This document shows, one piece after another, positions 56,314-61,123 of a stretch of 64,000 nucleotides of DNA. The notes under the pieces were generated by a model. The model was not told the origin of the DNA. It saw nothing but the letters and a program-made list of their open reading frames with translations, and made no database searches. Every line of letters starts with the position of its first letter. The stretch's first letter is position 1. Source of the DNA: Odiellus spinosus. Lineage: Eukaryota; Arthropoda; Arachnida; Opiliones; Phalangiidae. The position numbers were made by a program, and so were the translations under genes. The stretch spans positions 22,277,794-22,341,793 of the forward strand of contig OY987234.1 of the NCBI GenBank assembly GCA_963920705.1, in the 5' to 3' direction.

Positions 56314-59300
56314 ATGAGGACTGGTTTTGTGCGTGTAGAATTGAACCGTACCATTTGGGAAGTGCCGGAAAGGTATCAAAGACTTTCTCCAGTGGGTTCC
56401 GGGGCATATGGCCAAGTCTGGTAAGCCTAAAAATTTTAGACCACCCCTTTTTTCCTGCGTGATTAATGTTATTCAACACCAAGGGGGCTTTTCTCAACAT
56501 TCTGTTTTGTATTTGAACGTTAATTTAAAATATTGACACGTCATTGTCAATTGTTTATATTTTCGAATCAATTATGGAGTAAAATCTGTTTTTCTAGTAT
56601 TTTTAAAACTATTAACTGTGATGAATAGCTCTGCCATGGACACCGTGAGGAATATCAAAGTTGCGATTAAGAAACTAGCTCGTCCTTTTCAATCGGCTAT
56701 CCACGCTAAACGCACTTACAGGGAACTTCGACTACTCAAGCACATGAACCATGAAAATGTAGGAGGCAGTAATATTACTGTCATTTTGGAAAGGGCGCAA
56801 GATTGCTATATGTTCACCCTTTAACTCTCTCGAGTCTTTTCCTTATTCAAAGAAACTGTGACAGTGCTTTATCTAGGTTCTTATTTTGCTTTTATCATTT
56901 TTGATTTGGGATTAGGTTATAGGTTTACTAGATGTGTTTAGTCCATCCACAACATTAGACGATTTCCAAGATGTGTAAGTTAAAATAAATTACTTAGTTT
57001 TCACTAAAAGGGTGGCAAAAGAAAGACTTGCTAAGATTTAACTTCAATACATGGTTGTCAGGAGCTTGCGCGCGCAATTTATAATGTCTAAGTTCCACAA
57101 ACTGAACTACTAGTCTTTCTATTCGCTTCAGTTTGCGCTCGCAAGTGGTTGACAACTCTGGGAAAGGGCATTTTTGATTTTCCTCTTTAGTGGGAACTAT
57201 GATTTATAACAAATTTTATGTCTTAAAAGATTCTTAGCCACTTGTTTGTTACTCTATTTAGTTATTTGGTTAATCACTTAATGGGTGCGGACTTGAATAG
57301 CATTGTCAGGACGCAAAGATTGAGTGACGAACATGTCCAGTTCCTCGTTTATCAGATTCTCAGGGGTCTGAAGGTATAGTTGCTAATTTGTAAGGCTTTA
57401 TTTCAGTAAACGTAACTATAAAGTTTTCTCTTTTATAGTACATTCATTCGGCAGGAATCATTCATAGAGTATAAGAACGTTTTTTTATCGTAAAACTTAT
57501 AAAAAGTTTTATAATAAAAATTGATTTAATTTTCACTTTAAAGGATCTTAAGCCTAGTAATATAGCGGTCAACGAAGATTGTGAATTGAAAATATTAGAT
57601 TTTGGGCTTGCCAGGCACGCTGAAGTTGAAATGACGGGTTACGTCGCTACTCGATGGTATAGAGCCCCGGAAATAATGCTTAATTGGATGCATTATAACT
57701 TTACTGGTAAGAAAAAAACTAAACTCATCTCAAGGTGACAAAAATAATTGAAAATTTTTCAATTTCCAGTCGATATTTGGTCAGTGGGATGTATAATGGC
57801 GGAACTTATCACCTCTAAGACACTTTTTCCTGGCACAGATCGTATCCTTTTCTTTAAGATTGAAATTTACTCGTAAATTAGGGAATTACGATGGTAAATA
57901 TCGTGGACTAAGGTATCAATCTTTTCAGATGGTGATGTGAAAGGCAGGAAAGAAGCCTTCGTTTTAAAAGAAGCATTTCCTGCCTTCTACAACGCTTCCC
58001 CCTAAAGACTGATCCATAGTTCAGTGTTTTGCTTGATATTTTGAACCAGTATAGTTTTAAAATCTGATTTATTGTCCTGATGAATTATTTTTACGTCTAC
58101 GTGTTATTTACCAGCTTGCAATTTACCGAATTAAGATATTTTAGCGCGTAGTTTGATGTTAGAATGACTTTTTGTTGTTGTTTTGCACGAAAGCATGTTC
58201 ACTACCCTTAATCCGTTCGATTAAAACCCAGATATCCACCAGTTGAATTTGATAATGCAGCTTTTGGGCACTCCCTCTGAGGATTTTTTGCGGAAAATTA
58301 CGAGTGACAGTGTGAGTTTTGAATATTTTTTTACCGTTTTCTTAGTTATTTAACCAAACAAATTAGTTTATATCGAGTGAAGCACGTTTTTGTATCAAAC
58401 CCCTTACGTTTCTAATTGCTACGGTGTTTTTGAAACTGTTTAAACTTAGTCGACTTAACTTTGGCAATCGTCCAAAAATAATATTTAGGCATTTATATCT
58501 TTTGAACTAAAATTGGGTGAACAGACTCGGCTCGATGCGGAGAGAAGAGTAGCGATATCTTTTTAAAATAAATTATAATAAACAATAATCTCCTTAAAAA
58601 AACTCAGACATAGATCAACTAACGCGTACCATGGCGCTAGTTGGAACCCCTGATAAGTTTTTATTGGACAAAATGACTAGCCACGAGGTATTTACTTTAA
58701 TATTTCGAGTTAACTCTTTATTTACACGCTGCTAATTTAACCTTGTAACTCACACGCCTATTTTTTTATACTTTACATTCTTAATCAATATATTTCGCTC
58801 CTCTTACTTTAATTTCAATTAACAATGGGTAATTTAAAGGGAGATCATTAGGTGAAAATTTCACACCCCAATTATTTTTTCCCCGATTCTTCGTAATTAA
58901 AAAAAGCCTCCTGAATTTAACTATTAATTTTTTTAGGCTTAGCAATACGTTTGAATTTCCCAAAGTGATTCTATTCCCTTGAAATGGTTGGATCTTGTTC
59001 AAAAGTTAAATTGACCAAAATAGGTTACATTTTTGGCGAATCTAAGCGCACGTCGAGACATAAGAGATATTTAACTACAATTTAAACCTAATCATCATTA
59101 AATTTAATCAAAATCAAACGTGTTTATAGTTAATGAAAAAATGATAATATCTTCTCCATCATATCATTTTTTCATTAGCTATAAAAGCGTTTAATTTTGA
59201 TTAAATTTAATGATGATTAGGTTTGAATTAAAGTTTAATATCTCCTCTGTCTCGTCGTGCCCTTAGATTCCTAAAGAATTTAGACCATTTTGATTATTTC

Positions 59301-61123
59301 GGTTGCCAAATTGCGACTCTGGAGGTCTTGGAATATTGAAATACCTTAATATTTCAGTGTTTGGAAACTGATCATTACAGTTGATAGTTTTGAAATCAAA
59401 CTTGATTCGCTTATTAGTTTTTGTATCGAAATTCAAACGTATGATTAGAATATCAATCTTTTGAAAAATATTTTCTATTAAAATTGGTTTTTCCAAAACT
59501 CTAAAAAATAAGGAATCAGAAAAAAGAAAAAAAAAAGAAAAATTATCAGCTAATAATATCCCTTTAAGCCTTATATCAGTTTAGATTGTTCGTATATTAA
59601 CTATTCCTTCCTCCGTACCTTAACAAATCTCAATAGACATAGATCAACTGATGCGTATCATGGTACTTTGTGGTACTCCTGATGAGGAGTTTTTACAAAA
59701 AGTCACGAGTGACGAGGTTCGCTTTTATATAGGATTAGATTAGATTTAATCATTTCAATTAATCTTTAAGGCTGGGTGAAGAGAAAAGTTTTATCAATTT
59801 TATTATTAAAAATAAGACTTCGCATTGGGGAAATGTCTCTGAAGATTCAGATTTTTGGCATTTAATTAAAATTAGTACCTCCGACTAATCAAAAGACTCC
59901 CCCTCCTTTGGCTTTATAAATATACGCGACACTTGCTGTTGATTAAGAGCTTGAAAATAATAAATTAGCTCGATTCAAAGAGTGTGCCACAGAATTCTAC
60001 TAAGCCAAAGGTCGGTCGTCTTCTGATTAGTCAAAGGTTCTCCTTTTGATTGAATGCCAAAATCAGGGTTCTGATTTTTGTACAATTTAGGGACGTTTCC
60101 TGAATAGTATAAAATACTACCTTATTTTTAGAAGCAGAATTAATAAGAAAATCAATTAATTTTCCTCTTCATCCTTCATTTAAAAGCTCTTAAATATGTG
60201 GTTGTAAGTTTTAAAGGGCTAGGGACTCATTTTCGAAAATGGTTCAAAAAAATTATTATTTTTGTAATTGGGAAAATACGGTCGTCATTTTGGAATAACT
60301 AAATTCTATTGACGTCAATAGGAAACCAGGATCGATTTTGACAATGGAGAGATAGGCCTAAGATGAATTGAAAAATAAACTTACGTAGTTATTTGCCTAG
60401 ATACGGTATATATGTATTTATTCAGAATTGGGGAGGTTTGTATACTTAGACTGTTAGTAAATAAATAAATAGATTTAATTTTGGAGTCCCTAACCTTTTC
60501 CCAGAAGTAATATAACAATTTTATGTGAAACATTTACAGTTAGAGCTTTAAACTTACCGTATAATTAACCCGTATCCCATTCCAATGATAAAATAGGCGA
60601 GAAATTACATCAAATCATTACCAGTCATGCAAAGAAAAGATTTTAAAGAAGTTTTTCACGGTGCCAACCCGCACGGTCAGTCGCAATGAACTCAAACCTA
60701 ATTGAGTTCATTAAAAATTAAACTAATCTTTATTACAGCTATCGATCTTCTAGAGAAAATGCTAGAATTGGACGCTGACAAGCGACCAACAGCCACGGAG
60801 GCTTTAGCTCATCCTTATATCGCCCAGTATTCCGATCCAACTGACGAACCCGAAGCCGAACCTTACGACGAATCATTTGAAAGTCGAGATCTGTCCGTTG
60901 CCGAATGGAAAAGTAAGACATTGATCGCGTTAATATATTCTTAAGCCTAATTTTTAAACCTCAAAGGATTGGAAGAGTTCTTTTAAAGACCTCTTGTAGA
61001 ACTTTTATCGATTTTTAAACCCTAAAAATCCTGATTCGAGTTATTTACATCATTATAGGGCTTGTTTTTCAAGAGGTCTCCGCTTTCCAACCATCACCAC
61101 CGGCTCAAGACAACTTAAATTAA
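56314..61123 (+). CDS. p38: p38 mitogen-activated protein kinase
   Basis: A stress-activated Ser/Thr kinase, switched on by MKK3/6-type kinases that phosphorylate its TGY motif. Coding exons: 56314-56420, 56629-56758, 56916-56974, 57262-57373, 57439-57468, 57544-57706, 57770-57841, then one of 58232-58311, 58608-58687 or 59637-59716, then 60597-60675, 60739-60912, 61059-61123. With any one alternative exon the total is 1071 nt, 356 aa (human p38-alpha 360). Glycine loop GSGAYGQV (28-35), catalytic lysine in VAIKK (Lys50), HRDLKPSN (145-152), DFG (165-167), TGY (177-179), [21 protein letters not shown], and the C-terminal [13 protein letters not shown]. All donors and acceptors are GT-AG and every phase agrees. 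AATAAA follows the stop at 61122-61127. The 30-nt fifth exon encodes [10 protein letters not shown]. Confidence 0.98.
57770..57841 (+). other. p38 constitutive exon 7, donor side of the alternative cluster
   Basis: 72 nt ending in phase 1 (first base of the His225 codon). It carries [20 protein letters not shown]. Its donor GTATCC must be joined to one of three downstream acceptors, each of which begins AT or AC to complete a His codon. Confidence 0.95.
57949..57986 (+). promoter_or_regulatory. Intronic hairpin upstream of the alternative exons
   Basis: AAGGCAGGAAA (57941-57951) pairs perfectly with TTTCCTGCCTT (57976-57986), and the inner arm GAAGCCTTC / GAAGC can extend the fold. It lies in the p38 intron between exon 7 and the first alternative exon. 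A role in exon choice is speculation. Confidence 0.4.
58232..58311 (+). other. p38 alternative exon 8a (canonical type)
   Basis: 80 nt, acceptor AACCCAG, donor GTGAGT. It encodes residues 225-251, beginning [15 protein letters not shown] and ending KITSDS. The HIHQLNLIM start is what I recall from insect p38, and the SDS end parallels SES in the human CSBP2 form. It is the likeliest default isoform. Confidence 0.95.
58608..58687 (+). other. p38 alternative exon 8b
   Basis: 80 nt, acceptor AAACTCAG, donor GTATTT. It encodes [15 protein letters not shown] at the start and DKMTSHE at the end of the same 27-residue slot. The terminal SHE parallels the human CSBP1 form. The frame is open and phases match, so this is a usable exon and not a decayed copy. 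Confidence 0.93.
59038..59272. mobile_element. 235-bp palindromic MITE-like element in the p38 intron between exons 8b and 8c
   Basis: The ends GAATCTAAGCGCACGTCGAG and CTCGTCGTGCCCTTAGATTC are inverted partners with few mismatches. The arms continue almost unbroken to a short centre near 59,145-59,160: TAAACCTAATCATCATTAAA on the left against TTTAATGATGATTAGGTTTG on the right. As RNA it would form a hairpin with arms over 100 bp long. No clear target duplication found. Confidence 0.9.
59637..59716 (+). other. p38 alternative exon 8c
   Basis: 80 nt, acceptor TCTCAATAG, donor GTTCGC (weaker by base match). It encodes [15 protein letters not shown] at the start and QKVTSDE at the end. At DNA level it is closer to 8b than to 8a (both begin ACATAGATCAACT), so 8b and 8c come from the later duplication. 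Confidence 0.92.

Follow-up and report, generated by a model that had tools for sequence, protein, structure and literature searches.

Three apparently mutually exclusive versions of exon 8 beside a U12-type splice site in the p38 MAPK gene of Odiellus spinosus

Exchange of homologous exons is known in the p38 and JNK genes of the mitogen-activated protein kinase (MAPK) family. In MAPK14, which encodes p38α, two such exons substitute for each other in vertebrates and give CSBP1 and CSBP2 (PMC1431701; PMC4465641, where MAPK14 is entered in Table 1); the part of a review of MAPK splicing that names p38α variants gives Exip and Mxi2 only (PMC8699841). In JNK (MAPK8/9), exons 6a and 6b are exclusive through the classes of their splice sites, U12 and U2 sites being generally incompatible (PMC3584512, PMC8329584). 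Incompatibility between U2 and U12 acceptors was reported in just 5 of 629 human clusters (PMC5740500), and spliceosome incompatibility is said to be limited to clusters of exactly two exons; docking/selector clusters of the Dscam exon 6 type consist of three or more exons in tandem and use a single one (PMC6071210). Here we describe a p38 gene in a window of 64 kb from Odiellus spinosus (positions 22277794-22341793 of its contig, in a genome of 443 Mb). Where vertebrate MAPK14 has two exons, this gene has three, 8a, 8b and 8c (Table 1), which are apparently mutually exclusive.

The gene is complete (56314-61123, + strand), and its spliced models, of 356 amino acids each, are open from ATG to stop. 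The three 80-nucleotide (nt) exons lie exactly where the original prediction had placed them, and AG and GT flank each copy. The first two letters of each, AT or AC, form a His codon with the C that exon 7 leaves over, and each closes with a complete codon ahead of exon 9. The segment of 27 residues encoded by each copy joins to ARNYIKSLP of exon 9, again as foreseen, and the three models are identical elsewhere. The locus thus holds homologous exons in tandem that agree in length and phase, and any one of them by itself yields an open product. At the peptide level, 8a and 8c as well as 8b and 8c are identical at 17 of 27 positions, and 8a and 8b at 13 of 27; the positions constant across all three copies also number 13 and include the opening H, I, Q and L, GTP, and a TS close to the end. 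The copies found each other by tblastn in the whole window (E = 6e-7 for 8a/8c, 1e-6 for 8b/8c and 0.002 for 8a/8b). This search revealed no fourth copy in the window, the other matches listed, up to an E value of 20, all having E values of at least 1.

All three copies show purifying selection. Per 80 nucleotides we counted 23 differences between 8b and 8c, 30 between 8a and 8c, and 38 between 8a and 8b. We simulated simple neutral drift 20,000 times for each pair with an equal count of nucleotide changes; amino-acid changes as few as those seen, with no stop codon, arose with P = 0.0077 (8b/8c), 0.00005 (8a/8c) and 0.0004 (8a/8b). For 8b and 8c, the nonsynonymous divergence dN was 0.26 and the synonymous divergence dS was 0.90. 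The repeat common to these two copies is 84 nt long at 73% and reaches no further than the AG on one side and the GT on the other. Because the resemblance is confined to the exon with its AG and GT, the flanks have diverged, which indicates that the duplication is old. No relatives were found in viral contigs, and no known RNA family reached its gathering score at 57000-61500.

The splice sites around the cluster fall into two classes by their scores. The shared donor of exon 7 is a perfect U12-type site: of the 6063 GTs that the window has on its two strands it ranks first, the runner-up scoring 10.36, and as a U2 site it reached -1.73, a value attained by 60% of the GTs. Among the twelve acceptors of the gene, the three highest U12 branch-point scores are those of the exon 8 copies. 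Their scores were reached by 0.15% (8c), 1.63% (8a) and 1.88% (8b) of the 3248 AGs on the + strand, those of the other nine acceptors by 11-79%. The acceptor of exon 9, with a best U12 branch-point score of -1.57 that 48% of AGs attain, looks U2-type. The donors of the alternative exons look U2-type as well, scoring poorly as U12 sites (8a -12.6, 8b -11.4, 8c -4.5) and acceptably to weakly as U2 sites (6.82, 5.32 and 4.22, in the same order).

These site classes point to a one-of-three exon cassette that is probably kept exclusive by the U12 and U2 classes of its sites. The minor spliceosome would splice a single copy, 8a, 8b or 8c, to exon 7, and the major spliceosome would then join the chosen exon to exon 9. 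Since sites of the two classes do not generally pair with each other, skipping (the U12 donor of exon 7 with the U2 acceptor of exon 9) and joins between copies (a U2 donor with a U12 acceptor) would be of mixed class and should be barred. Such a rule would involve no counting and would be valid for any copy number. Wrong joins that leak through would run into a premature stop, and decay would clear them. The outcome would be three p38 proteins with a common activation loop and common catalytic residues, which differ in the C-lobe at up to 14 of 27 positions. The sequences themselves are observed; we infer the splicing steps from the class of each site and from known rules.

The original prediction had seen the choice of one exon in three as enforced by the gene structure, through an exon length that is not divisible by three. 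This stands for skipping all copies or using two, which shifts the frame, but not for the inclusion of all three, which lengthens the message by 240 nt, a number divisible by three, and keeps the frame until it is halted by a stop codon inside 8b. Each of the five wrong combinations (none, the three pairs and all three) meets a premature stop, which lies at codon 241 or codon 253. An exon length of 80 nt makes wrong joins costly without keeping them from being made, and the incompatibility of U12 and U2 sites is the stronger candidate for enforcing the choice.

Table 1. Coordinates of the p38 gene, of its exon 8 cluster and of a repeat within it (positions in the window)
Feature	Position	Strand	Length (nt)	Evidence and remarks
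Coding exon 1 (from ATG)	56314-56420	+	107	Open frame, GT donor, alignment to human p38α
Exons 2-6	56629-56758, 56916-56974, 57262-57373, 57439-57468, 57544-57706	+	130, 59, 112, 30, 163	Joined protein; p38α alignment through TGY loop
Exon 7, common upstream exon	57770-57841	+	72	Spliced model; leaves split His codon C/AY
U12-type 5′ splice site GTATCCTTT of exon 7	57842-57850	+		Score 16.06
U12-like branch point ACCCTTAAT of 8a	58204-58212	+		Score 7.17, moderate; branch A 20 nt upstream of exon
Exon 8a	58232-58311	+	80	Spliced model, splice-site scores, tblastn; U2-type donor gtgagt
U12-like branch point CTCCTTAAA of 8b	58590-58598	+		Score 7.02, moderate; branch A 10 nt upstream of exon
Exon 8b	58608-58687	+	80	Spliced model, splice-site scores, tblastn; U2-type donor gtattt
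Long inverted repeat between 8b and 8c	59009-59299	.		138-nt arms, 83% complementary
U12-type branch point TACCTTAAC of 8c	59616-59624	+		Score 11.09, clear; branch A 13 nt upstream of exon
Exon 8c	59637-59716	+	80	Spliced model, splice-site scores, tblastn; weak U2-type donor gttcgc
Exon 9, common downstream exon	60597-60675	+	79	Spliced model, splice-site scores; acceptor without U12-like branch point
Exon 10	60739-60912	+	174	Spliced model
Exon 11 (with stop codon)	61059-61123	+	65	Spliced model

The same genome provided controls for these assignments. O. spinosus carries genes for U6atac and for the U12 small nuclear RNA, each with one genome match above its family cut-off (110.3 and 122.3 bits, respectively), which mark it as an organism with a minor spliceosome. 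The sole U6atac match lies at 22375145-22375266 on the contig and strand of p38, beyond the window and 36.2 kb past the p38 stop; this closeness was seen after the fact and may be due to chance. In the JNK gene, a U12 donor (GTATCCTTA) follows the homologous exon, the intron splits the same His codon (C/AC) in the same phase, and the U12 branch point (GTCCTTAAC) has a score of 12.82 and lies 19 nt before the next exon. In ERK, two U12 donors scored 16.1, and the acceptors that follow them have branch points scoring 11.29 and 9.29. Four ERK and JNK acceptors served as U2 negatives: three scored at most 1.65, and that of ERK exon 9 scored 6.49. Minor introns are reportedly present in 69% of human MAPK-family genes (PMC6865273).

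The exclusion of JNK 6a and 6b by site class (PMC8329584, PMC3584512) apparently takes place around the homologous U12 intron. In vertebrate JNK the doubled exon stands before this intron, with two U2 3′ sites in competition as well as two U12 5′ sites (PMC8329584). The p38 gene described here is the mirror image, its tripled exon standing after the U12 intron with three U12-like acceptors. In the JNK locus of O. spinosus, tblastn showed one such exon: the search of its 9000 bases gave no second 72-nt exon, save for one uninspected stray match (E 0.92). The U12 intron of this JNK gene consists, by eye, mostly of a satellite-like tandem array, at about 6260-6900 of the reverse complement of the locus.

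Several points weigh against the assignment of p38 exons 8a, 8b and 8c to a cassette governed by site class. The use of all three is predicted from the sequence. The scoring matrices for both classes were written for this analysis. The donor of 8c (GAG/gttcgc) is weak, 9.6% of GTs reaching its U2 score, and 8c could accordingly be decaying. A low U2 score is by itself no mark of a U12 donor, since the donor of exon 5, which is not U12-like, scored similarly (-1.54). Likewise, the moderate branch points of 8a and 8b are not conclusive by themselves, given that the presumed U2 acceptor of ERK exon 9 comes near to them. Finally, the incompatibility is not absolute, since in MAPK12 the 3′ site of a U12 intron can be spliced to a U2 5′ site once minor splicing fails (PMC8329584).

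The weakness of the 8c donor and the moderate branch points of 8a and 8b would also fit a locus in which just one or two exons are functional, the weakest copy (8c if judged from the donor, 8b if judged from the branch point) being a hardly spliced relic. We consider this unlikely because all three copies keep the frame, the 80-nt length, the splice dinucleotides and a constrained kinase peptide, and because the best branch point belongs to 8c. It is marginally less likely still that frame and decay operate without any site-class rule, any combination being spliced and the wrong ones being cleared by nonsense-mediated decay. The early stops of all five wrong combinations agree with such a scheme, as does the spacing of the copies (296 nt between 8a and 8b, 949 nt between 8b and 8c), which leaves copy-to-copy joining possible and for the same reason rules out too-short introns as a bar to it. 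However, this scheme would waste transcripts and offers no reason for a perfect U12 donor or for U12-like acceptors. Next to the proposed exclusion by site class, decay is probably a second safeguard.

The choice of the exon by competing RNA pairing between a docking site and selectors, as in Dscam, is very improbable: the introns do hold 14 inverted pairs (minimum length 14, ungapped), such as a perfect 15-nt pair at 58945-58959 and 59428-59442, but no one-to-three complementary set was seen among them, in which the cluster differs from those of the Dscam type, and the longest hairpin, the inverted repeat of Table 1, is a dispersed repeat with 164 matches. The genome search was made with 59060-59260, and one copy can match on both strands. 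The repeat resembles a miniature inverted-repeat transposable element (MITE), its long genomic matches having about 78-89% identity, and its dispersal through the genome indicates that it is not a regulatory stem specific to the cluster. A second long inverted repeat lies at 59853-60062, in the intron next to 8c.

By alignment, the exchanged segment corresponds to about residues 228-254 of p38α, where a helix of the C-lobe leads into the first part of the MAP kinase insert. The three isoforms probably differ in substrates or partners, as had been proposed at the outset; the accompanying view that they would not differ in catalysis is doubtful in light of the difference between CSBP1 and CSBP2 towards hog1. 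Kumar et al. reportedly found in 1995 that a yeast hog1 deletion is complemented by CSBP1 and not by CSBP2, and the isoforms of O. spinosus possibly differ in activity as well. Each copy may also have its own place of use, and each isoform its own preference for substrates or partners. The claim that the human MAPK14 exons are exchanged at this same place was borne out by the literature (PMC4465641, PMC1431701).

As to the origin of the copies, the nearest segment in the PDB is human CSBP2 for 8a and human p38γ for 8c (15 of 27 residues in each case). Exon 8a shares 19 of 27 residues with a fly p38b sequence. Exon 8b has in common with the CSBP1 type Met250 and the final SHE, which also ends the segment of the CSBP1-type salmon p38a (PDB 3oht), and its BLOSUM62 score is 69 against 63 for CSBP2; the identities point slightly the opposite way (13/27 with the salmon CSBP1 type versus 14/27 with human CSBP2). 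In a tree of eight segments, the bootstraps were 39% for 8b with the salmon CSBP1 type, 34% for 8a with 8c, 24% for 8b with 8c and 23% for the three copies together. The first of these values was 42% with JNK included (its segment taken without the one-residue gap) and 55% when further sequences were added. With bootstraps this low, 27 residues do not decide between the two origins first suggested, an ancient pair duplicated further and a parallel origin. An ancient pair with a later copy is plausible from the peptides. Convergent tandem exon duplication is frequent in animals, according to a study whose main text does not mention MAPK (PMC9741552).

A triple p38 exon cassette was not found by full-text searches of open-access (PMC) papers, which is not proof of novelty; in PMC3564746, a text search gave no mention of MAPK, p38 or 'mutually exclusive'. 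The kind of arrangement is already known from the MAPK14 swap and the U12/U2 exclusion of JNK. What is new is the presence of three copies, in an arthropod, in a layout that can be extended to N. If the cluster works as read here, the limit to two exons (PMC6071210) falls, as an own U12 acceptor for each copy would allow an exact one-of-N choice. Minor introns would then have a concrete benefit, in that they offer a site beside which exons can duplicate safely. Human p38 stabilises U6atac (PMC3728624), and the activity of p38 could in this way exert feedback on how its own three-way message matures. With somewhat less than even confidence, we put forward a joint reading, in which the minor spliceosome would enforce exclusive choice in a cluster of more than two exons (a single U12 donor followed by N exons that each have a U12 acceptor and leave by a U2 donor, for any N and without counting by RNA structure), p38 and JNK would have diversified the same kinase lobe on either side of a single ancient U12 intron, and p38 could feed back on its own message.

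The identity of the gene is supported by the TGY activation loop of the model protein and by its best PDB matches, which are p38α chains (salmon p38a, E 6.5e-182; human p38α, E 2.3e-179). The p38, JNK and ERK genes are separate loci, on contigs C12, C2 and C4, respectively. The p38 protein had 103 matches in the genome, and the six regions opened beyond the p38 gene were read as JNK, ERK, NLK and three cyclin-dependent-type kinases. One p38 gene was found, and on the reading of these six regions another is unlikely. With one gene, the three exon versions may fill part of the role that four genes have in vertebrates.

Directly upstream of p38, at 54728-55165, lies an intronless calmodulin-like gene with EF-hand pairs detected by Pfam. 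On the minus strand, 52168-53370 is a long open frame that has no Pfam match; its end resembles the N-terminal acetyltransferase NAA30. An open frame at 33919-34971, with a weak zf-RVT match under the curated cut-off, is probably a retrotransposon fragment. At 26384-27027 (minus strand), a tandem repeat keeps three frames open at once, which is an effect of the repeat and does not denote genes. In keeping with an arthropod origin, arrays of TTAGG, a repeat present in many arthropods, are abundant in this genome, with 7014 forward and 2583 reverse overlapping matches against none for the reversed control.

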